The notes beneath the pieces were generated by a model. It was not told where the DNA came from. It was given only the letters and a program-made list of their open reading frames with translations, and searched no databases. Position numbers and translations under genes: made by a program. Shown piece by piece: positions 1,340-64,000 of a stretch of DNA of 64,000 bases (within the stretch, counting starts at the first letter, position 1; the number at the start of each line of letters is the position of its first letter). This DNA is from Chrysomallon squamiferum (lineage: Eukaryota > Mollusca > Gastropoda > Neomphalida > Peltospiridae). The DNA lies in the NCBI GenBank assembly GCA_012295275.1, contig CM022672.1:35637732-35701731 (forward strand). The letters run 5' to 3'.

Positions 1340-1395
1340 GTCGTTCGACACTCGGCGAATTCAGTCAGCTGCCCTAGCTGCAGAAAGAGAACACA
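1340..1395 (+). CDS. Unrecognised gene, exon a
   Basis: Acceptor TTTTCTTCAG precedes it. Read with one base completing a codon, it gives SFDTRRIQSAALAAEREH and ends in phase 1 at donor GTAGGT. The 32-bp satellite begins within a few bases of this donor. Confidence 0.5.
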
Positions 1396-4300
1396 GTAGG
1401 TAGACCTAGTTTATAGTACACCAGTGTGTATAGTATACCTAGTTTATAGTACACCAGTGTGTATAGTATACCTAGTTTATAGTACACCAGTGTGTATAGT
1501 ATAACCTACTTTATAGTACACCAGTGTGTATAGTATAACCTACTTTATAGTACACCAGTGTGTATAGTATACCTAGTTTATAGCACACCAGTGTGTATAG
1601 TATACCTAGTTTATAGCACACCAGTGTGTATAGTATACCTAGTTTATAGTACACCAGTGTGTATAGTATACCTAGTTTATAGTACACCAGTGTGTATAGT
1701 ATACCTAGTTTATAGTACACCAGTGTGTATAGTACACCTAGTTTATAGTACACCAGTGTGTATAGTACACCTAGTTTATAGTACACCAGTGTGTATAGTA
1801 CACCTAGTTTATAGTACACCAGTGTGTATAGTACACCTAGTTTATAGTACACCAGTGTGTATAGTATAACCTAGTTTATAGTACACCAGTGTGTATAGTA
1901 TAACCTAGTTTATAGTACACCAGTGTGTATAGTATAACCTAGTTTATAGTACACCAGTGTGTATAGTATACCTAGTTTATAGTACACCAGTATGTATAGT
2001 ATAACCTAGTTTATAGTACACCAGTGTGTATAGTATACCTAGTTTATAGTACACCAGTGTGTATAGTATAACCTAGTTTATAGTACACCAGTGTGTATAG
2101 TATAACCTAGTTTATAGTACACCAGTGTGTATAGTACACCTAGTTTATAGTACACCAGTGTGTATAGTATACCTAGTTTATAGTATACCTAGTTTATAGT
2201 ACACCAGTGTGTATAGTACACCTAGTTTATAGTACACCAGTGTGTATAATACACCTAGTTTATAGTACACCAGTGTGTATAGTATACCTAGTTTATAGTA
2301 TACCTAGTTTATAGTACACCAGTGTGTATAATACACCTAGTTTATAGTACACCAGTGTGTATAGTATAACCTAGTTTATAGTACACCAGTGTGTATAGTA
2401 TACCTAGTTTATAGTATACCTAGTTTATAGTACACCTAGTTTATAGTACACCAGTGTGTATAGTACACCTAGTTTATAGTACACCAGTGTGTATAGTATA
2501 CCTAGTTTATAGTACACCAGAGTTTATCAAACAAAACTGTTTTATAATTTTACTTATTTATTTAGTTAAAATGAATCAAAAGTCTAGAAATATATGATAT
2601 AGCACACCTAGTTTATCAAACAAAACTGTTTTATAATTTTACTTATTTAGTTAAAATGATAAAAAAATGCACAAATATATGATATAGCACACCTAGTTTA
2701 TCAAACAAAACTGTTTATAATTTTACTTATTTATTTAGTTAAAATGAATCAAAAATCTAGAAATAGATGATATAGCACACCTAGTTTATCAAACAAAACT
2801 GTTTTATAATTTTACTTATTTATTTGGTTAAAATGAATCAAAAATCTAGAAATAGATCATATAGGTACACCAGTGTTAATCAGGCAGACAGAATTATTGT
2901 ATAAATGGACATATGACTTTGTTTTCGAATTTTATGTGGATCAGAGATCTAGTTTATGTATTTCTGTTAGAACATGGACCAGAGCACTACTTTCAGAGTA
3001 TTTATAAAAAAAAACATTATTAACATTTAATTTAATTTATTTTCTTTTTTAAGTGAAATTATCATGAGCAGAAGACAGTAATCACTTTGAAAAATATTGA
3101 ATTTTCATTAAGAGAAGCATTATATAATTTGAAACATATTTATTTTTTGTTAAAGAAAACATATAATTTGCAAAATGCTGATTTTTTGTTAATGGAATGG
3201 AGGTGTAAAATTTTAAATGTTTACTTTAAAGGGAAATATGCTGTGTACACGCGGTCGTTTGCTCGACGCCAGATCATGCAGAGTCCTCCTCCACCAACAG
3301 ACGTCGTTTACCTCAACACCAAGAAACATCCAGTAAGTAGTTGTTTACCTCAACACCAAGAAACATCCAGTAAGTAGTTGTTTACCTCAACACCAAGAAA
3401 CATCCAGTAAGTAGTTGTTTACCTCAACATGAAGAAACATCCAGTAAGTAGTTGTTTACCTTAACACTAAGAAACATCCAGTAAGTAGTTGTTTACCTCA
3501 ACACCAAGAAACATCCAGTAAGTAGTTGTTTACCTCAACACCAAGAAACATCCAGTAAGTAGTTTTATACCTTAACACCAAGAAACATCCAGTAAGTAGT
3601 TGTTTACCTTAACACAAAGAAACATCCAGTAAGTAGTTGTTTACCTCAACATGAACAAACATCCAGTAAGTAGTTGTTTACCGTAACATGAACAAACATC
3701 CAGTAAGTAGTTGTTTACCTCAACACCAAGAAACATCCAATAAGTAGTTGTTTACCTTAACACGAAGAAACATCCAGTAAGTAGTTTTTTACCTTAACAC
3801 CAAGAAACATCCAGTAAGTAGTTGTTTACCTTAACACAAAGAAACATCCAGTAAGTAGTTTTATACCTTAACACCAAGAAACATCCAGTAAGTAGTTTTA
3901 TATCTCAACACAAAGAAACATCCAGTAAGTAGTTGTTTACCTTAACACAAAGAAACATCCAGTAAGTAGTTTTATACCTTAACACCAAGAAACATCCAGT
4001 AAGTAGTTTTATACCTCAACACAAAGAAACATCCAGTAAGTAGTTGTTTACCTCAACATGAAGAAACATCCAGTAAGTAGTTGTTTACCTTAACACTAAG
4101 AAACATCCAGTAAGTAGTTTTATACCTTAACACCAAGAAACATCCAGTAAGTAGTTGTTTACCTCAACACCAAGAAACATCCAGTAAGTAGTTGTTTACC
4201 TCAACACCAAGAAACATCCAGTAAGTAGTTGTTTACCTCAACACCAAAAAACATCCAGTAAGTAGTTTTATACCTTAACACCAAGAAACATCCAGTAAGT

Positions 4301-7300
4301 AGTTGTTTACCTTAACACAAAGAAACATCCAGTAAGTAGTTTTATACCTTAACACCAAGAAACATTCAGTAAGTAGTTGTTTACCTTAATACCAAGAAAC
4401 ATCCAGTAAGTAGTTTTATATCTTAACACCAAGAAACATCCAGTAAGTAGTTGTTTACCGTAACACAAAGAAACATCCAGTAAGTAGTTTTATACCTTAA
4501 CACCAAGAAACATCCAGTAAGTAGTTGTTTACCTTAACACGAAGAAACATCCAGTAAGTAGTTGTTTACCTCAACATGAACAAACATCCAGTAAGTAGTT
4601 GTTTACCTTAACACGAAGAAACATCCAGTAAGTAGTTTTATACCTTAACACCAAGAAACATCCAGTAAGTAGTTGTTTACCTTAACACGAAGAAACATCC
4701 AGTAAGTAGTTTTATACCTTAACACCAAGAAACATTCAGTAAGTAGTTTTATACCTTAACACCAAGAAACATCCAGTAAGTAGTTTTATACCTTAACACC
4801 AAGAAACATCCAGTAAGTAGTTTTATACCTTAACACCAAGAAACATCCAGTAAGTAGTTGTTTACCTCAACATGAAGAAACATCCAGTAAGTAGTTTTAT
4901 ATCTCAACACAAAGAAACATCCAGTAAGTAGTTGTTTACCTTAATACCAAGAAACATCCAGTAAGTAGTTGTTTACCTCAACATGAAGAAACATCCAGTA
5001 AGTAGTTGTTTACCTCAACACCAAGAAACATCCAGTAAGTAGTTGTTTACCTCAACATGAACAAACATCCAGTAAGTAGTTGTTTACCTCAACATGAAGA
5101 AACATCCAGTAAGTAGTTGTTTACCTCAACACCAAGAAACATCCAGTAAGTAGTTGTTTACCTCAACATGAACAAACATCCAGTAAGTAGTTGTTTACCT
5201 CAACATGAAGAAACATCCAGTAAGTAGTTGTTTACCTCAACACCAAGAAACATCCAGTAAGTAGTTGTTTACCTTAACACAAAGAAACATCCAGTAAGTA
5301 GTTGTTTACCTTAACACGAAGAAACATCCAGTAAGTAGTTGTTTACCTTAACACCAAGAAACATTCAGTAAGTAGTTTTATACCTTAACACCAAGAAACA
5401 TTCAGTAAGTAGTTTTATACCTTAACACCAAGAAACATCCAGTAAGTAGTTTTATACCTTAACACCAAGAAACATCCAGTAAGTAGTTTTATACCTTAAC
5501 ACCAAGAAACATCCAGTAAGTAGTTGTTTACCTTAATACCAAGAAACATCCAGTAAGTAGTTGTTTACCTCAACATGAAGAAACATCCAGTAAGTAGTTG
5601 TTTACCTCAACACCAAGAAACATCCAGTAAGTAGTTGTTTACCTCAACATGAACAAACATCCAGTAAGTAGTTGTTTACCTCAACATGAAGAAACACCCA
5701 GTAAGTAGTTGTTTACCTTAACACCAAGAAACATCCAGTAAGTAGTTGTTTACCGTAACACGAAGAAACATCCAGTAAGTAGTTGTTTACCTCAACACCA
5801 AGAAACATCCAGTAAGTAGTTGTTTACCTTAACATGAAGAAACATCCAGTAAGTAGTTGTTTACCTCAACATGAAGAAACATCCAGTAAGTAGTTGTTTA
5901 CCTCAACACCAAGAAACATCCAGTAAGTAGTTTTATATCTCAACACAAAGAAACATCCAGTAAGTAGTTGTTTACCTTAACACAAAGAAACATCCAGTAA
6001 GTAGTTTTATACCTTAACACCAAGAAACATCCAGTAAGTAGTTTTATACCTTAACACCAAGAAACATCCAGTAAGTAGTTGTTTACCTCAACACCAAGAA
6101 ACATCCAGTAAGTAGTTTTATACCTTAACACAAAGAAACATCCAGTAAGTAGTTGTTTACCTCAACACGAAGAAACATCCAGTAAGTAGTTTTATACCTT
6201 AACACCAAGAAACATCCAGTAAGTAGTTGTTTACCGTAACACGAAGAAACACCCAGTAAGTAGTTTTATACCTTAACACCAAGAAACATTCAGTAAGTAG
6301 TTTTATACCTTAACACCAAGAAACACCCAGTAAGTAGTTTTATACCTTAATACCAAGAAACATCCAGTAAGTAGTTTTATACCTTAACACCAAGAAACAT
6401 CCAGTAAGTAGTTGTTTACCTCAACATGAAGAAACATCCAGTAAGTAGTTTTATACCTTAACACCAAGAAACATCCAGTAAGTAGTTGTTTACCTCAACA
6501 CCAAGAAACATCCAGTAAGTAGTTGTTTACCTCAACACGAAGAAACATCCAGTAAGTAGTTGTTTACCTCAACATGAAGAAACATCCAGTAAGTAGTTGT
6601 TTACCTTAACACAAAGAAACATCCAGTAAGTAGTTTTATACCTTAACACCAAGAAACATCCAGTAAGTAGTTTTATACCTTAACACCAAGAAACATCCAG
6701 TAAGTAGTTGTTTACCTCAACACCAAGAAACATCCAGTAAGTAGTTGTTTACCTCAACACCAAGAAACATCCAGTAAGTAGTTGTTTACCTCAACATGAA
6801 GAAACATCCAGTAAGTAGTTGTTTACCTTAACACAAAGAAACATCCAGTAAGTAGTTTTTTACCTTAACACCAAGAAACATCCAGTAAGTAGTTTTATAC
6901 CTTAACACCAAGAAACATCCAGTAAGTAGTTGTTTACCTCAACACCAAGAAATATCCAGTAAGTAGTTGTTTACCTCAACATGAAGAAATATCCAGTAAG
7001 TAGTTTTATACCTTAACACCAAGAAACATCCAGTAAGTAGTTTTTCTTGTTTGAATATTTTATTTGAAGTGCAATATGTTGTTATATGAATTAAAATTTG
7101 AAAAATATGTTGTTTCTATTTTATTCTCAATATTCAAAATTAAAAATTATAATTATATTCATTAAAATTAACAAATACAATTTTGCTCTTTTATTTTCAT
7201 TCTTCAAGATACAGATATTAATTACAGTCATCATATTTAATTTGTTTTAATTAAAATGTTTCCAGGATGTGGATACTGAGGAAAGTCTTGCCTGTCAGGA

Positions 7301-10174
7301 AATGCAGAACAAACTTGCCTCCCTTGGTCTGAACATCAGAAAAGAAACACTAGAAAGGTTTTCTGCTTTACTTTGTAGACTGTCACTGAGTGTCAAACTG
7401 AATTTTATTTCTTTCAGCTGTTAATTTGTAAATTGTCATCTTGTACTGAATAAAACCTAACTTTATTTACTTTGGCAGTTACCATTTATATTTTAATTCT
7501 TCAATCTGTCAATTTCAAAATTATCATTATATTGTTACCCATTGAACAAAATTAATCTTGGCTAATTAATTTCTATATTACTTGTGTATGTCCATCTACT
7601 GAATTAACATGAAGATTTAACTTTTTCTTGAAAATATTGTTATTTCAAAAAAACTTTTTTTTTTTTTTTTCTTTTTTGTCAAGATAGTCTTTGTTAGAAG
7701 TGGATTGTATATATATTTTTTTTATACACAAATTATTTAATATTTTTTGGAAAGCAGCATAAAACAAAAACTATAGAGCATTTTATCAATAAATCTGTTT
7801 ATGTCTACTTAGAACATTAAATACAAACTAAGCTTTATAATATTTGATTTGTACGTTTTAGACATTTTACGAAAAAAGTTTGAGACAAATAGATTGTTAT
7901 TTTTATTTTTTTTATGGTATTTTTTTTTTATCCTTTACATTAATAAGTTTCTACATCTGCTGTTCAGCCATATATTGATTCTGGTTGAAACCAAATTTAT
8001 CATGTCTATTAATACATTGTTTATGCCTATATGGAAATAAAATACAAAAAACTTTTTTCGCTTTCATTTTTAAATCAGATGTAATATAACTAATAATAAA
8101 TAATTAAGTCATTGTTTGGGATTAATCAAAATTTGATTCCATTTAGCTACAAAACATTTTATACAGATTTTCATAAAGCAGCATACAAATATTATGGCTT
8201 GCGATCTCAGTTGAAAATGTAGTTACAAATTAATGTTTATTGTCTCTAAAAGTTAGAATTACAAATTATGATAACAGTTTACATTCATATTACTCAGCAT
8301 GTTAAAGCATGATGACATTTTTAATATATATATTTTTTTTTTATATTCAATGAAATCATTTTAAAATTTAATAAAATATTAAAGTTACAAGAATACAATC
8401 TAAATATGGAGAATAACAATACAATGTGTGACAATATGAAATAGAGTTATATTTCTTGTAAATCATGGATTAATATATAATAGAATATCTAACTTTTAAT
8501 AATTTAGATTTGTGATGTTCTCACTGTTATTAAATGTTAATGCTTGTTTACAGAGCTCTTTTTCCGCCGTCTGGTAAAACTCTTCATTACGAAATATCTC
8601 GAGACGTCATTCGTTCTCCTGCGTCAGGGTAAATGTTACACTTATTAGTACATGTTTATTTAATTTTTACATTTATTAGTACATGTTTATTTAATTTTTA
8701 CATTTATTAGTACGTTTATTTAATTTTTACACTTATTAGTACATGTTTATTTAATTTTACACTTATTAGTACATGTTTATTTAATTTTACACTTATTAGT
8801 ACATGTTTATTTAATTTTACACTTATTAGTACATGTTTAATTTTTACACTTATTAGTACATGTTTATTTAATTTTTACACTTATTAGTACATGTTTATTT
8901 AATTTTTACACTTATTAGTACATGTTTATTTAATTTTACACTTAGTACATGATGTTTATTTAATTTTACATTTATTAGTACATGATGTTTATTTAATTTT
9001 ACATTATTAGTACATGATGCTTAATTAATTTTACATTGATTAATACATTATGTTTATTTAATTTTACATTTATTAGTACATGATGTTTATTTAATTTTAC
9101 ATTTATTACAAATAATAAATTATGTTTATTAAAATGTTACATTTTTACAAATAATACATTCTTTAATTAGAAAAAGAAAGAAAAATAACAAAATAAATGC
9201 CATTAATTATTATATTTAGAAAAAAGATTATTTTGTTATCATAGTGATTTGAAAGAAATTAATAAAATAAATAATATTCAAAGTGAACAGTTGTTTTATC
9301 TTATTTTATTTTTAGACTTCTAAGTCATCCAAAGTTCTGGCTTCCTACAGAATACATGAAAGTGAAAATAGCAGAAAAACAGCTAGGTAAATGATAATCA
9401 TTGTCATTATCTATTATTGTTATCATTTTTGTTATTGTTACCATTAATATTTTTATTTTTATTATTTTTTTTTGTTTTGTTATTATTATTGTTATTGTTA
9501 TTGCTAGTGTTATTATTATTATCATCATTTTGTAATTATTGTTGTTGTTAATACCCTTATTATTATTATGGTTATTATTACTATCATTGTCCTATTTTTA
9601 TTTTTATTCAATATCATTATCATCACTATTATTATTATAATCATCAGTTATAAATTGCTAAATTACAGATATTTAGGACTTTATTTCATACACTAATTGT
9701 CAGTATTTTATACAATAATTTATATTATAGTTGTTATTTTATATATCAACTGCTAATATTGTATATAACAGTCAATATTTTTTGCAAATGACAATATTTT
9801 ATATGATAGTTGATATTTTATACAATAGCTGACATTTTATAGGCTAGACAGTATTTTATACAATAACTGTTTAATAGTTGATATTAATATTACAGTTAAT
9901 ATTTTTATGTAAGTGTTCATTGCTGATATTTATAATATTTTTATGTAAGTGTTCATTGCTGATATTTGTAATATTTTTATGTAAGTGTTCATTACTGATG
10001 TTTGTAATGTATAAAAATGTGATTGCAGCGAGAGCAGAACACACGATGTGGTTGCAGAAGAGGGAGGAGGAAAGAGAAGTGAAATCAGCGCTGGGACTCA
10101 CAACATCCGCGCAACAAAAACAAAGAAAAACAAAAAGAAAGGAAAGAAGAAAACAAAACGACCTGCGAGTGTGA
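1340..10174 (+). CDS. Unrecognised protein, C-terminal part, six exons
   Basis: I join exons 1340-1395, 3232-3332, 7266-7357, 8554-8628, 9316-9386 and 10029-10174 (TGA at 10172). Phases agree at every junction and give 541 coding bases after an unseen 5' part. The protein has a basic, partly helical segment (TRRIQSAALAAEREH), a PPPPTDVVYLNTKKHP linker, an acidic-to-helical stretch (DVDTEESLACQEMQNKLASL), the turn FPPSGKTLHYEISRDV, LSHPKFWLPTEYMKVKIAEK, and a highly basic tail rich in K, R and Q. I do not recognise the family. The tail could be a nuclear localisation or RNA-binding region, but that is only composition. The joins after exon 1 (donor GTAGGT at 1396; acceptor AAAG at 3231) are the weakest; the last four exons are solid. 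The introns are filled with minisatellites that touch or include the donor sites. Confidence 0.6.
1400..2519. repeat. Minisatellite, ~32-bp unit, about 33 copies
   Basis: Unit GTATACCTAGTTTATAGTAC then ACCAGTGTGTATA, with ATACC/ATAACC/ACACC variants and shorter partial units near 2180, 2290 and 2410. It starts immediately after the exon donor at 1396. Open frames through it on both strands are a by-product of the periodicity, not genes. Confidence 0.97.
2520..2870. repeat. Tandem repeat, ~87-bp unit, four copies
   Basis: Copies begin near 2525, 2614, 2700 and 2788 with ATCAAACAAAACTGTTT and end with a piece of the preceding satellite (CACACCTAGTTT). The unit therefore fuses unique intron sequence to the 32-bp satellite, and was amplified after that array existed. 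Confidence 0.93.
3232..3332 (+). CDS. Unrecognised gene, exon b
   Basis: Reads KYAVYTRSFARRQIMQSPPP then PTDVVYLNTKKHP and ends in phase 0 at the strong donor CCA|GTAAGTAG. The last 26 or so exon bases are the first copy of the 37-bp minisatellite. The acceptor used here (TTTAAAG at 3231) is weak, so the exon start is uncertain; an upstream acceptor is possible because the frame stays open back to about 3087. Confidence 0.55.
3306..7041. repeat. 37-bp minisatellite containing an exon-donor junction, ~100 copies
   Basis: The unit is GTAAGTAGTTGTTTACCTCA followed by ACACCAAGAAACATCCA. The period is 37 throughout, so 3.7 kb hold about 100 copies, with two main flavours (GTTGTTTACCTCA and GTTTTATACCTTA) and variants ATGAAG, ATGAAC, ACAAAG and ACGAAG. 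The first copy lies across the real exon end (…AAGAAACATCCA|GTAAGTAG), so almost all copies keep a perfect U1-type donor. Reading past the true donor meets an in-frame TAG at 3375. Confidence 0.98.
7266..7357 (+). CDS. Unrecognised gene, exon c
   Basis: Acceptor TTTCCAG; encodes DVDTEESLACQEMQNKLASL then GLNIRKETLE and ends with AG, completed as Arg by the next exon. Donor GTTTTC is imperfect. Codon pattern and phase agree with both neighbours. Confidence 0.75.
7358..8553. other. AT-rich intron, no feature
   Basis: About 1.2 kb of very AT-rich intron with T runs. The open frame at 7849-8040 is Phe/Leu-rich low-complexity sequence without coding character. I see no RNA gene or mobile element here. 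Confidence 0.7.
8554..8628 (+). CDS. Unrecognised gene, exon d
   Basis: Acceptor TTGTTTACAG; encodes ALFPPSGKTLHYEISRDVIR then SPAS and ends with GG at donor GTAAAT. It contains four CpG-containing codons in otherwise CpG-poor DNA, which supports coding status. Confidence 0.78.
8632..9112. repeat. Minisatellite, ~31-bp unit, ~15 copies
   Basis: Unit TTACACTTATTAGTACATGT then TTATTTAATTT, starting three bases after the donor of the exon ending at 8628. Later copies diverge (ACATGATG insert, loss of CTTA), so the array is cleanest near the splice site. Confidence 0.95.
9316..9386 (+). CDS. Unrecognised gene, exon e
   Basis: Acceptor TTTATTTTTAG; encodes LLSHPKFWLPTEYMKVKIAE then KQL, and ends in phase 1 at donor GTAAAT. 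The aromatic, mixed-charge sequence is clearly coding. Confidence 0.78.
9387..9660. repeat. Degenerate TTA/TTG/ATC trinucleotide tract
   Basis: Imperfect ATT, GTT and ATC runs start directly after the donor at 9387 and fade near 9660. The minus-strand open frame here (Ile/Thr-rich) is a repeat artefact. Confidence 0.85.
9897..10011. repeat. Tandem repeat, ~40-bp unit, three copies
   Basis: Three copies of ATATTTTTATGTAAGTGTTC then ATTGCTGATATTTGTA. Each includes ATGTAAGT, a donor-like string. It lies just before the acceptor of the last exon. Confidence 0.9.
10029..10174 (+). CDS. Unrecognised gene, last coding exon
   Basis: Acceptor GATTGCAG. With the phase from exon e it reads ARAEHTMWLQKREEEREVKS then a short ALGLTTSAQQ link and a K/R/Q-rich tail, with TGA at 10172. 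One other frame also stays open to a TGA nearby and is also Lys-rich, but only this frame fits the upstream exons. Confidence 0.75.
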
Positions 10175-12129: not shown

Positions 12130-12320
12130 AACTGGTTTAACTGTGATATGTTTAGTGTTTAATTGTGATTTGTTTAGTGTTTAATTGTGATATATAGGGT
12201 TTAATTGATTTTAGTGTTAATTGTGATTTGTTTATGTTTAATTGTGATTTGTTTAGTGTTTTGTTTATAGGGTTTAATTGTGATATGTTTAGTGTTTAAT
12301 TGTGATTTGTTTAGTGCTTA
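12130..12320. repeat. Imperfect ~21-bp tandem repeat
   Basis: About eight copies of TTTAATTGTGATTTGTTTAG with GATATG/GATATA variants. Confidence 0.85.
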
Positions 12321-13487: not shown

Positions 13488-15236
13488 TTAACTTCCGTTG
13501 CCGTTGATTTGGTTCTTGCTTCCTCGCGGGTACTCTTGACGTAAGTGATGACTGTTGATGACTGATTTCACGCATGCGTCTATCACGTTTGGGAAGGGCA
13601 TCCTGTCTGGCAGAGTTTCTGCCCCTGCTTTGAGCGGGTCGAAGCACAGCATGGTATCACATGCACTGTCATTTCGCTTCTTGCCGCCAATTAAGATGAT
13701 GTTTCCTCGGAACTGAACCGCCCCGAAATGAACTCGCCCAAAATTTTCCACTTTACCGATGGTGCGACATCCTCCGTCCTCGGAGAATTCAATGACGTCA
13801 CCATCGGTGGTGATGACGAAAACTGCCGAATCACAAACGACTGTCCTGGTGAGGCGACAGGCGAACGGGAGGTCAGTGAAGTGTGACGACTGACCAACTC
13901 TCGTGTCGAAACACTGGATCGCTGGCGTGTTCCGGTTGTTACGCTGAGCACCACCGAAAGTGAAAATCTTCTCGCCAATCACAGAGGACGACACCATTTC
14001 CACCGGGATGGGCAGATCTCCAGCCGTGGACCACTTGCCGGTGTTGATGCTGTATTTCTCTATTGACGAGATCACTTTGTTTCCCACTGGCAGGTTTCTG
14101 TTGTAGCCGCCGAGGACGTAGATGGAGTCTCTGACGGCCACCATTCCGTGACGAGACCGGCCCTGAGCCATCTGTTCACACTCTCGCCAGTCGTTGCTTT
14201 CGTTGTTGTACTTGAACAGTTTCGGCCATTTTCTGCTTCCTCCTGACAGATAGATATTGTTGGCATAGGTGCAGGCAGAAAACTCGACTCCTGGGTCATA
14301 TGGAAGCGGTGCCAGGTAAAACCATTTGGACTGTCTGAAGCTGTAACACAGGACTTCTGTCGGTTTGGTCTGTGTCGATCCTCCGGTCAGCACGACGATC
14401 ACCTCGTCTGGGTCAAACGAATTGCGATAGGCCGCCCGCTTCGACGTGAACTCCTGTCTGCGCGCGGGCAGCATGTGGTAGCGCTTGGCCTCCTCCAGCA
14501 TCACCCGGCAGACGATGTCGTCCTTCAGCAGGCTTTTGTTGTGGCTGATGCTGAGCAGGTACTCCGGGCTGACAAGCGGCAGGCGCAGGTGCTCGATGAT
14601 GTAAGCGAGGTGGATGCCTCTGTTGTCAGGGTCGATGTCGATCCACCTGAACACCGCCTCGCACACCATCTCCTCGTTAGGCACGACGAGGTCGTCGTCT
14701 TTGATCACTGCCGCCAGCTCGTCCACGTTCATGTCCTTGAAGTCATCAGACCGTGACAAGTCGAGGAAGTGGTCGAGGATGAGTGGCCACGCCTTGTCCT
14801 GCAGCTCCTCGCAGTTGTGAGTCCTGCCCAGCCTCCACATTCGTATACAGTTCTCCGGGGTGAGCACCTGCACGAGGAACTCGCCGCACATGTGAATGAG
14901 ACCTTTCACCTGAAGAGTCGTCGCCGCGCGAAGCAAACTTTCTGCATTCTCTTCGCAGACGACGTTTTTCCCTGTGTATATGAAATTAAGGACGCTGTCG
15001 AAGGTGCAGACGTCTATGTTAAGCAAGGTCAAGGTCCCGTCAGGGCTGTCTCTCATGCCGGAGGAGAATGTGGCGTCGAAGTGAGCAGACATGGCTGCTA
15101 GGACTGACCGGTGACATCGGAACCGCTTGTTCTGCACGATTATACTCGCGTCTGCAAAGTGTCCGCTCGTCCACAAGTACTTGATTCCTTCTGACAGAGT
15201 CTCCAGGTACTTCTGATGCCAGCCGCTTGATGTCAT
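13488..15236 (-). CDS. BTB-BACK-Kelch protein (kelch-like family, KLHL6/24/35-like)
   Basis: This 582-residue protein fits a Cullin-3 substrate adaptor. The BTB domain is at about residues 18-125 (FADASIIVQNKRFRCHRSVL, FIYTGKNVV), BACK at about 130-240 (ending LRLPLVSPEYL), and a six-blade kelch propeller at about 285-560. Gly-Gly blade pairs are visible in VVLTGGSTQ, IYLSGGSRK, IYVLGGYNR, IFTFGGAQR and IILIGGKKR; the fifth blade has VFVITTDG instead, so its GG pair is lost. I start at the Met at 15236: it follows a TTTTTGCAG|G acceptor by one base, whereas the longer open frame to 15302 adds only low-complexity intron sequence. The coding sequence is one exon and visibly GC-richer than everything around it. 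The last blade resembles KLHL24, but the exact subfamily and substrate are inference. Confidence 0.95.
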   Translation of the reverse strand: MTSSGWHQKYLETLSEGIKYLWTSGHFADASIIVQNKRFRCHRSVLAAMSAHFDATFSSGMRDSPDGTLTLLNIDVCTFDSVLNFIYTGKNVVCEENAESLLRAATTLQVKGLIHMCGEFLVQVLTPENCIRMWRLGRTHNCEELQDKAWPLILDHFLDLSRSDDFKDMNVDELAAVIKDDDLVVPNEEMVCEAVFRWIDIDPDNRGIHLAYIIEHLRLPLVSPEYLLSISHNKSLLKDDIVCRVMLEEAKRYHMLPARRQEFTSKRAAYRNSFDPDEVIVVLTGGSTQTKPTEVLCYSFRQSKWFYLAPLPYDPGVEFSACTYANNIYLSGGSRKWPKLFKYNNESNDWRECEQMAQGRSRHGMVAVRDSIYVLGGYNRNLPVGNKVISSIEKYSINTGKWSTAGDLPIPVEMVSSSVIGEKIFTFGGAQRNNRNTPAIQCFDTRVGQSSHFTDLPFACRLTRTVVCDSAVFVITTDGDVIEFSEDGGCRTIGKVENFGRVHFGAVQFRGNIILIGGKKRNDSACDTMLCFDPLKAGAETLPDRMPFPNVIDACVKSVINSHHLRQEYPRGSKNQINGNGS

Positions 15237-15240
15237 CCTG

Positions 15241-15355
15241 CAAAAACAACAACAACGATAATAATAATAATCATAACGATGTAGCAGTAGTAGCAGTAGC
15301 AATAATAGTAGTAGTTAAAACTAATTAACCAGCAACAACAAAAATAGTAATATAA
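15241..15355. repeat. AAC/AAT/AGT trinucleotide tract
   Basis: Mixed trinucleotide repeats directly at the acceptor of the kelch coding exon. Read on the minus strand they give the Leu/Tyr/Cys run that falsely lengthens the open frame. Confidence 0.85.
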
Positions 15356-25640: not shown

Positions 25641-25795
25641 TTAAAAAAACCAGTACCGGAAGAAGAGGAGAAAAACCACCACCAGAATGACTCCAATAGC
25701 AATTTTGAAATACGAAGACCTCAAGTTGAGATACTTTGCATCTTTCTTGTACTTCTGAGAAAGAGTTGATAAATTACTGGCTTTGCTGTCTAACA
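25641..25795 (-). CDS. SEC22B: Sec22 exon 5
   Basis: Second half of the SNARE helix ([20 protein letters not shown]) and the hydrophobic anchor ending at TAA, 25641-25643. Acceptor TTTTCAG at 25796-25797. Confidence 0.96.
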
Positions 25796-28700
25796 CTGAA
25801 AATATAGAAAGTAAATAATTTTTGTTTAACATTCTTAGAAATAATATTTTCAAATAATTTGAAGATACTTGAAGCACTCCAAATTTAGAAAACATTTTAT
25901 GTCAATTCATAACAATTCTGAACTACTGAAATCAATTTGAAACAAAGGTAAGTAAGAACACTATCGTTCCTATTTGAAAATCATTTTCAGTAGACTATAT
26001 AACTAAAAATAGTAACTGAATTATGTCTTAAATAACAAAAGAGAAAAAGGTTTTTATAAACTTAAAATTAATTTGTGGATATATCTTGTTGAGGGGAGAT
26101 AACTGCAATCACCTCCATTGTTTCTGAGGTTTTTGATGCTGTTTGTTTAGAAACTCTGCAACTGTTTTAATTAATAGTAATGATTTAAATAATTTATTTG
26201 TATGACATTTTTCAAAAATATTGTATATAACAGTAATATGTAATTATTATTATTGTTATTTATTTTTTTAGATATACACACTACTGTTAGAAATCTTGAC
26301 ATTATCAAGCAGGCAAAGTATACTGCTATGCTAAGATTAAAGTAACAAATTATTAAAATAAATCAGTTTTAAACCTGATAAAGCTTCGCCTCTCTGTAAC
26401 ACATCGTCAATGTTCTGCACCATTATCCGCTGAACATCCTGCAACTCGGTGTTGATGTGTGACAGGTTTCTCCTCGCTCTTGAGTCCATGTACGAACGTC
26501 TACACTTCTGGATATAAGTATCTGATGAAAAAATACAAAACCATTCAACTATAAATAAGTAACTGATAAATTATTTTTTGTTTCATTATCATGAATAAAT
26601 ACTTCTGGATGAAAGTATCATATATATATATATATATATACTCTGAAAAAAGAAATTTAAACAAAAATATTGTAATCTAGATAAATAAAAAAAAGGTTTT
26701 CCCCTTAAATCATGTCCTTTTAAATCACAAACACAGAGACATTATAATTTAAATTTTTTATAATTCTGATCTATGCATGATAGAACTGATATGTAAAAAG
26801 GTTAAAAAAAAATAATTTTTGAATTTTTAAATATATTTAGTTAAAATTCTTAATTTTCAACATAATCATCCTCATTATGGTATAACTCAAAATCAGCAAC
26901 AAAATGCATTTCTAGAACTTCAGAATGATTTTTACTTATGATAGCTGTCATGTTGGAATTAAGAATCAACTATAAATATATATTTATCAGAACTGTTATT
27001 AAGTGAACATAAAGCTAATTCCTATTTTATCATTTTTAGCTATGCCCATCCTTCTTAAGACCACAAGAGGATAATAAGATAAATAAAAAATAAGTTTACT
27101 TCTTTACTGTAACAGTATACTGCAGTGTACATACACATATGGTAACCATATAAACAGATGAAGGAAGACACAGAAATAGACAGCATGTTGTCAGATATAG
27201 TTAAAAGGTTACAAATATATTTTTCTAGTGTGACTGTTATTTTTATATTTTTCCATTTTCATTTTCCTTTAGTTTTCCTAATAGTTATCTATGTAAATTT
27301 GTTGAGAAGGTACTTACAAGTATATATATTATATATTAAATAAAATTGTGAATTCATTTTATGTTAAAAATATTTTGATCTCTATAAAAGTTGTTGCTTT
27401 ACTGTTATTATGAGCAGTTTTAAGTATGAAGGTAAAAACAAAAGTGCATGGGACACTAAGTGTGTGTTTCTTTGATTTCTTTCTGCCATGGCCACTGCAA
27501 GCAGCCCAGCACTGAGGTGTAAATATCCTGTTTTACAGATTTCATTTGATCAGTAAAAAGTGTTTTCACAGTTATGTATGAATTTAAAACATATATTAAA
27601 ATTAAAAATAATGAGATTGGTGTGCTTCCTGCTATAATTTTTTTTTATAAAATCAGCACTATAAAAAATGTACAGAACAGTTTACAGACAAAACTATTTT
27701 GAAGATTACCACCTACAATATTAAAATATAAGCTGTTACCAATAATCTCTTTCAGAACATCTCCAGCAGAATATTAAACACTCATCTATTTTAGTGCACA
27801 TTAATTAGTCAAGAAATGTACTCAAGCCACGGTTTCACTGCTCCACTGGAACACTTTGATGATATTTGTATTCACTGTACTTACCAAATTCTATGAAAGT
27901 ATACGGTCTTGAGACAGTTTCTACTCTTGATCCATACTGCGCAGTAAATTCTCCTTGTAAATCTTCCAAATATGTGTAAGCTAAGCGTCTTGAAAATGAT
28001 TTATCACACAGAACTAAATACATGACTCCACGTTCTATGATATAACTGAAAAATAAGGTAAATAGATTATTATCACTAGCTTCTGAAATTATTTCAGATA
28101 TCTGAATTTAATGTTTTTGGCTTTCTTTTTATGAGCTATACAGACACACAAACATACTTACTCACACAAATAACATATATAACATATATATATCTGTAAT
28201 TTATAGCTGAAATATTAAATTTACTGTTAAATTAACTTTATTGATATTATTCACTATTTTGTAATGATTCATATTATTTTGTTCTTACTGAGTTATAAAA
28301 ATACTTTATCAGAGTTAATGAAACAGAGGGATAATATATGAGACTTGATTTAATTATACAGTTTATAACATACTGAAAAATATATGGTCCTGATTCTAAA
28401 CTGCATCTTGCTGGTGGTTGGGGGTCATTGGAAAGTTTACGGAATAACTGTTTGGCCTGATTCTGGTAGTCCATTAAACTTCTTCCAGCCTAGTGTAAAA
28501 AAAATTAATGTTTCAGTAACAATAACAGATTTTAAATTCATTTCAAGCATTTTTTTTTCTCTACATATAAATATCTGTAAAAATTATTACTTTATTTTTT
28601 CTCATTTTGTTGTTGCTGTTAGTGTTATTGTTGTTTCTTTTGTTGTTTTAATGCCTTTATGGCTGTAAGTGTAAAATATATTTAAAATATGCGAGAATGT

Positions 28701-29101
28701 TTACAAATTTACTTTTAGCATTTTTTATTTTATTTTTATGCGACCAAATCAATTAATAATTCTTGTGTATATCGAGTTACTCGGTTAGACTGACAATGAA
28801 AGAAATGCAATTGTTTCAGTTACTAGTTAGTTGTATTAAATATTAAAATGAGTTAGTTTCACTATAAAATAATTAATCTTTTTATAGCTACAATAACTGT
28901 CACCATCTTACCGATATATATTATCATCATATGCATGTTTCAAAGTTTCGGCATTCAGTACAGAGTACTCGCTATACTCAGAGTCAGATACTGAGATAGC
29001 ATCATACTCAGATACTGTGATCTCACCTGTTCATCTTCTTGGACTGATGCAGCCAACGGCAAACCATCTGCTACTCTCGCTATCATTGTCAACAAAACCA
29101 T
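25641..29101 (-). CDS. SEC22B: Sec22 R-SNARE, vesicle-trafficking protein (SEC22B type)
   Basis: A complete gene of five coding exons: 29027-29101, 28374-28489, 27885-28045, 26375-26521 and 25641-25795, with phases 0, 2, 1, 1 and a total of 654 bases (217 residues; vertebrate SEC22B has 215). It encodes an N-terminal longin domain (about 1-120; [17 protein letters not shown] at the start), an R-SNARE helix (about 134-194) with the zero-layer Arg161 in VLQRGEAL, and a C-terminal membrane anchor (about 197-217, ending FFRYWFF). Family knowledge: Sec22 drives fusion in ER-Golgi transport in both directions and is packed into COPII vesicles. It stands head to head with Sec16, the COPII scaffold. 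All introns except the longest are plain AT-rich; I see no defect. Confidence 0.97.
26375..26521 (-). CDS. SEC22B: Sec22 exon 4
   Basis: Encodes the longin-SNARE linker (MDSRARRNL) and the first half of the SNARE helix, [20 protein letters not shown], then QRGEALS with the zero-layer Arg. Confidence 0.96.
27885..28045 (-). CDS. SEC22B: Sec22 exon 3
   Basis: Longin domain core, [20 protein letters not shown] through [12 protein letters not shown] and SRPYTFIEF; acceptor TTTTTCAG, donor G|GTAAGT. Confidence 0.96.
28374..28489 (-). CDS. SEC22B: Sec22 exon 2
   Basis: Longin domain part with [14 protein letters not shown] and [12 protein letters not shown]. It ends in phase 2 at donor CA|GTATGT; the next base to use is the T of exon 3, giving His as in the vertebrate FHY motif. 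Confidence 0.95.
29027..29101 (-). CDS. SEC22B: Sec22 exon 1
   Basis: Start codon at 29101; encodes [20 protein letters not shown] then QEDEQ and stops at donor CAG|GTGAGA, phase 0. This matches the known SEC22B amino terminus. Confidence 0.96.
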
Positions 29102-32766: not shown

Positions 32767-62342
<29,576 letters not shown>

Positions 62343-64000
62343 GTAATTATTTAATTGTTATCTATGATTTTCCTAGCTGTACATATATTTTAATTTTTAG
62401 TTCTTTAAAAAAATGTTTCTTGAATGCAAAAGAATTTAATAAATTTTCTATAAATTTTTCATTTTTCTAAATATTTATACCCACAAAATATTTAGTTAGG
62501 GAACCTTCAGAATAGAATTTTTATCTTAGACAGTACAGAGGATAATTAACTGATGGAATTTTTTCATGGAGGGGTTGTTATATTCATTCATTGCTTTTTG
62601 GTGGTGTGCATACATTTCTTAACTTTGTAGAAAGCCACTGCAGTTTTTTAATATGAACTGCTTTCAATTAATTAATACATCTGGAATATTCAGTTTATAA
62701 ATTTTGAATCAAACCACATGTCTGCATCATAGAATTTTCTCAGTTTAATTAACCAGCTTTTATTTTTAATGTTGCAATTTTATCCATTTGAAAGGGAGTT
62801 TCTTATTTTATACTTGCCAGTCATACATTTCATGTCTTACTTACATAGCTTCTTTTTGTTACTGTTGTTTACTTTGTTTATTGCATTTTGTTGTTTTTGA
62901 GTTGTGTGAATCTTTGTGAGGTAGTGATGATTAATTTAGCTTTGTTTTTAGTATAATGCATAAATTTTGTTAATTTTGCCTTAAAAGTAGATTATAAATA
63001 TAAGTCATTCATGAAATACAACAATAAAAACAATCACTGATTACTTTAGCTTGCAGTTTGTTTTATTAAATAAAAATATTTAGAAAGTTTGTGTTAATAG
63101 ATGAATTGAGAAATATTGTAAGGTTACAGCTGACTAAATAGGTGCTGCAGTGTTGGTACAGTCAAAGCTAGATGCAGCTGTTTGCTATGTCTGTGGTTGT
63201 TTACTGTGTTGAGGAGATCAGGCACAAAATGAAATTAGAAACACCAGGTTTAAATATAAGATCTCGTTTTATTTATTTATTTATTTGTTTGTTTATTGTT
63301 GTTGTTTTTTAACATCCGTTTTTACTGCATAATGAATGTTTTTATTTATTTATTACACATTCAAAATGTGCTAGGTTTGTCATTTCTACATATACCAGGA
63401 TGAAATCTGATATACTTAATGTACTTTTAACTGAAGAGATAAAATTACTATATTTTAGTGTATAATGAATGTTTTTATTTATTTATTACACATTCAAAAT
63501 GTGCTAGGTTTGTCATTTCTACATATACCAGGATGAAATCTGATATACTTAATATACTTTCAACTGAAGAGATAAAATTACTGTATTTTGCGAAAATGCT
63601 CAGTGTGATGATTGCTCTCAAACATTAGATTTCATTGTTGATGTTAACAAGGCAGGAAACAAAAGAAAGAAATAAACAACATCATTATTATAAAAACAAC
63701 ATATTATTGTATGTGCCGTTTGTTTATTGAGAAATACTTTTGTTACTTTTTTGACTTTTGACAATCATGATGTCATTCTGTTTGATTCCCTTGTCAAAAT
63801 GAGGCCAGTTTATTGGCTGGACAAATGCAGACAAAATGACGTATAACCAAATGAAATTTATAATTCTCATATACAAAAATCTATGCCACTGAGTTGGAGG
63901 GGAAAAAATAAATAAATAAAAAATTAAATAAAAAATTAAATTTAAAATAATACTAAAAATTTTAGTGTTGAAAGGAAATTTTTGTTAATGTTAAAATGAG
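62343..64000 (+). other. Sec16 intron 25, open at the right edge
   Basis: I found no further coding exon before the end of the window. The only structure is a 133-bp tandem duplication at 63329-63590. Confidence 0.6.
63329..63590. repeat. Tandem duplication, 133-bp period, two copies
   Basis: Copies start at 63329 and 63462 with ATAATGAATGTTTTTATTTA and differ at only a few bases, so the event is recent. Confidence 0.96.

Follow-up and report, generated by a model that had tools for sequence, protein, structure and literature searches.

A 101-unit minisatellite spanning a predicted exon-intron junction in the gastropod Chrysomallon squamiferum, with sibling arrays at SEC16 splice sites

The stretch of DNA analysed here (hereafter the window) comprises 64,000 nucleotides (nt) of the genome of the gastropod Chrysomallon squamiferum (assembly GCA_012295275.1, contig CM022672.1, positions 35,637,732 to 35,701,731 of the forward strand). 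Near its left end lies a predicted gene, referred to as gene X, in which a tandem array of 37-base-pair (bp) units occupies positions 3306-7042, starting in the tail of a predicted exon and running across its 5' splice site (donor) into the intron. Gene X has six predicted exons with consistent phases and a single open frame that leads to a stop codon. The boundaries of these exons were set by hand, and any earlier exons fall to the left of the window. Two further genes, SEC16 (+ strand) and SEC22B (minus strand, 25644-29101), were identified through tblastn searches that used the human proteins as queries. The coordinates of the features under discussion are collected in Table 1.

The structure of the 37-bp array is regular. 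Tandem Repeats Finder (TRF) reports a period of 37, 101 copies, 92% matches and 0% indels, and when the array is cut into 37-mers all 101 head-to-tail units share one register. The initial annotation, which had described a ladder of about 100 exon-donor junctions with its donor at 3333 and the next acceptor at 7266, is borne out on each of these points. It was also right that the unit spans the junction. However, the split is not about 26 exonic plus 11 intronic bases as then proposed: each unit joins GTTTACCTCAACACCAAGAAACATCCA, the 27 terminal bases of the predicted exon, to GTAAGTAGTT, the 10 bases that open the intron. The register of the array is thus set on the predicted junction. Unit 1 is the exon tail at the true junction, and the remaining units extend into the intron. 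There are 29 unit types among the 101, and unit 1 is matched exactly by 16 others (17 in all). The unique part of the exon is 55% GC, versus 34% in the array.

The splice signal has been retained in nearly all units. GTAAGT is present in 100 of the 101, the true donor counted, and occurs 19 times on the + strand outside the array. At the level of the donor 9-mer, 95 units carry CCAGTAAGT, five carry TCAGTAAGT and one carries CCAATAAGT. A small donor matrix was built from 28 other donors of the window, and the 29 modelled donors have a leave-one-out median score of 6.6 on it. The true site and its 94 identical copies score 8.4 on this matrix, and five further copies score 7.8. Neighbouring units are slightly more alike at lags 1 and 2, where 58 and 42 shuffles out of 1000 reach values as low, a weak signal among 20 lags. 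A higher-order repeat was considered and rejected, the similarity being weak and confined to those two lags. The longest run of units in common is 5, inside the shuffle range (maximum 6), and so there are no long copied blocks in the array. The RNA of 3232-3500 folds less well than 200 of 200 shuffles (z +3.96).

The link between tandem arrays and splice junctions is corroborated by SEC16, in which 17 consecutive exons (42948-61858) share one open frame. One sibling array repeats a donor and another an acceptor. In the donor array a motif search found 24 copies of GGTACTG, 43-87 nt apart, a spacing that leaves no missed copy between them. Twenty-two of the 24 carry ACAGAACAGGG, whereas ACAGAACGGGG is found in the exon copy and in one further copy; the copies have thus been homogenised separately from the exon. 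The exon end at this ladder is conserved in human SEC16A (KQNG / RQNG). The repeat copies are therefore probably derived from the SEC16 exon and not the reverse. The acceptor array has 16 copies, 42-59 nt apart, with TTTCAG in 15 and TTTCAC in one. Here too the spacing leaves no room for an overlooked copy.

Table 1. Predicted exons and tandem arrays of gene X and SEC16 (positions within the window).
Feature	Position	Strand	Basis or remark
Gene X, upstream predicted exon	1340..1395	+	Continuous frame; 33-bp array begins 4 nt into its intron
Merged 33-bp and 89-bp arrays near donor 1396	1400..2864	+	TRF
Gene X, predicted exon whose last 27 nt, reading KYAVYTRSFARRQIMQSPPPPTDVVYLNTKKHP, found the repeat unit	3232..3332	+	Acceptor TTTAAAG/GG, donor CCA/GTAAGT, six-exon frame, coding score
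Array of 101 x 37 bp	3306..7042	+	Each unit has 27 exonic and 10 intronic bases; GTAAGT intact in 100 units, the true donor among them
Gene X, next predicted exon	7266..7357	+	Acceptor TTTCCAG/GATGTGG, frame
Gene X, predicted exon	8554..8628	+	Frame; 30-bp array begins 3 nt into its intron
30-bp array near donor 8629	8632..9108	+	TRF
Gene X, predicted exon	9316..9386	+	Frame
Gene X, last predicted exon, with stop codon	10029..10174	+	Frame
SEC16 exon ending LIKQNG, whose tail founds the 75-bp unit	42948..43086	+	Match to human SEC16A by tblastn (52% identity, E 6e-11)
75-bp array across the donor of SEC16 exon 42948-43086	43074..44898	+	24 GGTACTG
49-bp array across a SEC16 acceptor	51869..52675	+	16 copies, 15 with TTTCAG/ATG
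SEC16 exon whose start founds the 49-bp unit	52673..52780	+	Weak tblastn match (E 0.065) and continuous frame
SEC16 31-bp array, with its end 4 nt short of the exon at 53502	53216..53497	+	TRF
SEC16 33-bp array, beginning 7 nt into the intron that starts at 55330	55337..55987	+	TRF

What if the extra copies were used? A premature stop would follow from splicing at each one of the 138 extra copies in the three ladders (136 with intact signals). In gene X this holds for 100 of 100 later copies (the GT is intact in 99); in SEC16 it holds for 23 of 23 later donors (all intact) and for 15 of 15 upstream copies of the acceptor (the AG is intact in 14). Since every extra copy ends this way, the frame is kept solely by the exon-proximal site, which the protein requires in all three ladders. 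The idea that decoys might add peptide into the next exon is excluded on the same grounds. These results agree with the earlier statements that only the first donors can give sense protein and that reading on meets an in-frame TAG, which lies at 3375-3377, where the open reading frame ends.

How good is the case for gene X itself? The exon at 3232-3332 has a coding score of 23.7, which was equalled or exceeded by 8 of 1441 open-frame background windows (5630 windows examined). A second frame of the same exon scores nearly as high (21.4), and the frames of the whole gene score 78.6, 60.2 and 37.1. The score therefore reflects exon-like composition more than reading frame and is only mildly frame-specific. 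Queries of 66 and 179 residues have no Pfam match at E 1, no PDB match is better than E 0.62, and a large protein set (540 and 814 candidates) yielded no homologue at E 1. Rfam gave no match at the gathering threshold.

Two other repeats lie in or near gene X. Three copies of a 36-bp unit with TATGTAAGT lie at 9897-10008, stopping 20 nt short of the last exon's acceptor. A 47-bp array at 1-530 contains two donor-like sites, GAAGTAAGA in nine copies (score 6.6) and GAAGTAAGT in three (score 8.2). This array could be another donor ladder, with its exon to the left of the window. In SEC16, a TG-rich microsatellite (47195-47583) begins 9 nt into the intron starting at 47186, and a 39-bp (13-codon) repeat at 33091-33334 keeps the frame within a large open frame at the start of the gene. 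By eye, SEC16 exon phases disagree across the intron 37467-40529; a small exon may be absent from the model.

Elsewhere in the window, a single open frame at 13488-15314 (minus strand) is a KLHL gene whose product is 95% identical to kelch-like protein 24 (KLHL24) of Gigantopelta aegis, a peltospirid gastropod of the subclass Neomphalina. Its identity to the Haliotis protein is 83%, and to those of Lottia and Nucella 78%. With gastropods as the nearest KLHL24 relatives, amphioxus is rejected as the host, and the sequence by itself points very probably to a snail near G. aegis but distinct from it. The GC content of the window varies from 20 to 44% in 2-kb bins.

Are arrays in general found at splice sites more often than expected? 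Arrays were scored if their TRF score was at least 200, their period at least 10 and their position within gene X or SEC16 introns with both ends known, which left 13 of 20 arrays after merging by hand. The seven dropped are 33091-33334, which is coding, 1-530 and 63320-63589, whose introns have an end beyond the window, and those at 12153, 12445, 19323 and 21487, which fall outside modelled introns. SEC22B introns contain no such array and were left unscored. The null model collapsed each array to one unit and placed it anywhere, with straddling freely allowed. Seven of the 13 arrays either straddle a splice site or come within 8 nt of one, against an expectation of 2.09 (P = 0.0014). They consist of the three junction-repeating arrays (two donor, one acceptor) and four that begin or end within 8 nt. 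Other tolerances give 6 of 13 at 5 nt (P = 0.006), 7 at 12 nt (P = 0.003), 7 at 15 nt (P = 0.004) and 8 at 20 nt (P = 0.001), and over the whole range of 5-20 nt P lies between 0.0011 and 0.0061. The window had been chosen for the array at 3306, and so the test was rerun without it; 6 of 12 arrays then remain at 8 nt (P = 0.004) and 5 of 12 at 5 nt (P = 0.016). Among the 10 non-straddling arrays, 4 are within 8 nt of a splice site (expected 0.38, P = 0.0003). Altogether, arrays occupy 47% of the length of the 24 scored gene X and SEC16 introns.

The best explanation, to which we assign a probability of about 0.8, is that 3306-7042 is a junction-spanning minisatellite of the kind known as a "mirage", near-neutral and presumably tolerated since the exon-proximal site is the one used. 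A short stretch over the 5' splice site (27 exonic and 10 intronic bases) would have been duplicated in tandem, and slippage or unequal exchange would then have expanded the intronic copies to 101. The copies would be selectively near-neutral because splicing would use the site beside the true exon. Perhaps exon definition pairs this donor with the only acceptor upstream of it, at a distance of 101 nt across GC-rich exon sequence, and mis-spliced transcripts may be cleared by nonsense-mediated decay. Arrays might accumulate at splice sites because duplication of a junction adds only intron, while a duplication within coding exon sequence would be eliminated. Mutation may in addition be biased to splice sites.

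Several observations weigh against this explanation. With no homologue detected, gene X and its exon at 3232-3332 remain predictions, and the choice of splice site is likewise predicted. The decoy donors equal the true donor in strength. Nor are they concealed by RNA structure, a possibility ruled out for 3232-3500 by its poor folding relative to shuffles. Among decoys that are equally strong and unstructured, a preference of the spliceosome for the first of about 100 sites is an assumption. Six of the 13 scored arrays sit away from splice sites, and the enrichment is based on a single 64-kb window with hand-made gene models. There is also a weak hint of constraint in the intron-derived part of the unit, which holds 1 of the 16 extra alleles in 10 of the 37 positions (P = 0.045, post hoc).

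Could the decoys be under selection? The ladder might be a landing pad for the U1 small nuclear ribonucleoprotein (snRNP), storing or competing for U1 or shielding the intron from premature cleavage and polyadenylation. The 100 intact GTAAGT motifs, the identity of 95 of 101 donor 9-mers and the unstructured RNA would all suit such a role, as would the longest invariant run in the unit, which covers 9 positions on the intron side. However, this run is not significant (shuffle P = 0.18), and neither is the conservation of the donor core, whose 11 positions (of 37) hold 2 of the 16 extra alleles (shuffle P = 0.11). Even with the post hoc value, the 101 units give no convincing sign of selection on the decoy donors. 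A SEC16 sibling ladder consists of acceptors, and an acceptor junction provides no U1 site. Four nearby arrays repeat no junction at all. In addition, polyadenylation-signal-like hexamers were counted in 13 of the 24 introns whose two ends are modelled. In 5 of the 13 their density per kilobase is at least three times that of the array intron, and none of these 5 has a donor ladder. Selection for U1 binding is therefore very unlikely. The initial annotation had offered U1 storage, protection from premature polyadenylation and neutrality as alternatives; the first two find no support here and the third fits best. In other words, neutral turnover suffices to account for the 37-bp ladder.

Another possibility is that minisatellites are seeded mutationally at splice sites in this lineage, for example by transcription- or spliceosome-linked breaks, and that introns grow from their ends. 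The 7 of 13 arrays that touch splice sites would fit, as would the 4 of 10 non-straddling arrays within 8 nt of one and the large share of intron length made up of arrays. Nevertheless, this is unlikely: the events are few and come from one window, 6 of the 13 arrays lie elsewhere, and a neutral filter requires no new mutational mechanism. More improbable than any of these ideas is that the array is an artefact, its length exaggerated during assembly, or that the exon is a chance open frame. It is true that the data come from one assembly, that gene X is without homologues and that its coding score is not strongly frame-specific. However, the 29 unit types are interspersed, with a longest common run within the shuffle range and no long copied blocks, and the siblings are in SEC16, a gene backed by homology. 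A broader reading is doubtful but conceivable. It would hold that in this gastropod lineage splice junctions are favoured birthplaces of minisatellites, that introns grow from their ends by junction copying, and that the spliceosome reliably takes one exon-proximal site among up to 100 equals, at donors and acceptors alike.

How does this compare with known systems? One precedent is intron gain through tandem duplication at AG/GT proto-splice sites (Rogers, 1989, as cited in a passage of PMC3087553). There too a tandem duplication copies splice signals. However, the snail copies are intronic, at the edge of an exon, and the window alone, without an ancestor, gives no sign of a new intron inside an exon. 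Another is CeRep25B of C. elegans, an intronic minisatellite near alternative exons (PMC4039745, abstract). The snail arrays are likewise intronic minisatellites near splice decisions, although that abstract does not describe CeRep25B units as copies of a splice junction.

The closest relatives are the amphioxus mirages, tandem repeats across exon-intron boundaries that passages of PMC3087553 describe for Adh3 and for globin genes (BflGb6 and BflGb9 are named), at both 5' and 3' boundaries. According to the same passages, the length of mirages differs between haplotypes, and Adh3 and reverse-transcription PCR data suggest that splicing is regular. Mirages are mentioned also for TnC and PGBD5 in part of PMC3902484. 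As in amphioxus, the 37-, 75- and 49-bp units of the snail span an exon-intron boundary (the exon of the 37-bp unit being predicted), and the 37-bp array has a predicted junction at its edge and its copies within the intron. Both kinds of boundary are represented, with donor ladders at 3306 and 43074 and an acceptor ladder at 51869, and splice signals are kept in 100 of 101 GTAAGT, 24 GGTACTG and 15 of 16 TTTCAG. The differences concern host and scale. The snail is a gastropod, not a cephalochordate, and two genes in one window bear several such arrays. The haplotypes of BflGb6 are described as having 6 and 3 units of 150-160 bp, and Adh3 units as 10-72 bp long (PMC3087553, in part), so the snail array of 101 x 37 bp has far more units than the globin cases described there.

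This ladder is potentially useful. With 99 strong, unstructured decoy donors behind one predicted true donor, it would cleanly test exon definition among identical sites, and it would also serve as a test of how introns lengthen. Among the papers listed by literature searches, no molluscan mirage was found by titles and the beginnings of abstracts, with most subscription journals outside coverage; one of these papers, on Conus introns (PMC3862624), contains the word minisatellite once. The word-searched passages of two vent-snail genome papers (PMC7142155 and PMC7895826) do not mention such arrays. Boundary-spanning minisatellites, suggested in a passage of PMC3087553 to be possibly general in cephalochordates, are already known as a kind. 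The occurrence of several in one molluscan window suggests that they originate in distant animal lineages, and the gastropod member apparently extends the kind to a new phylum.

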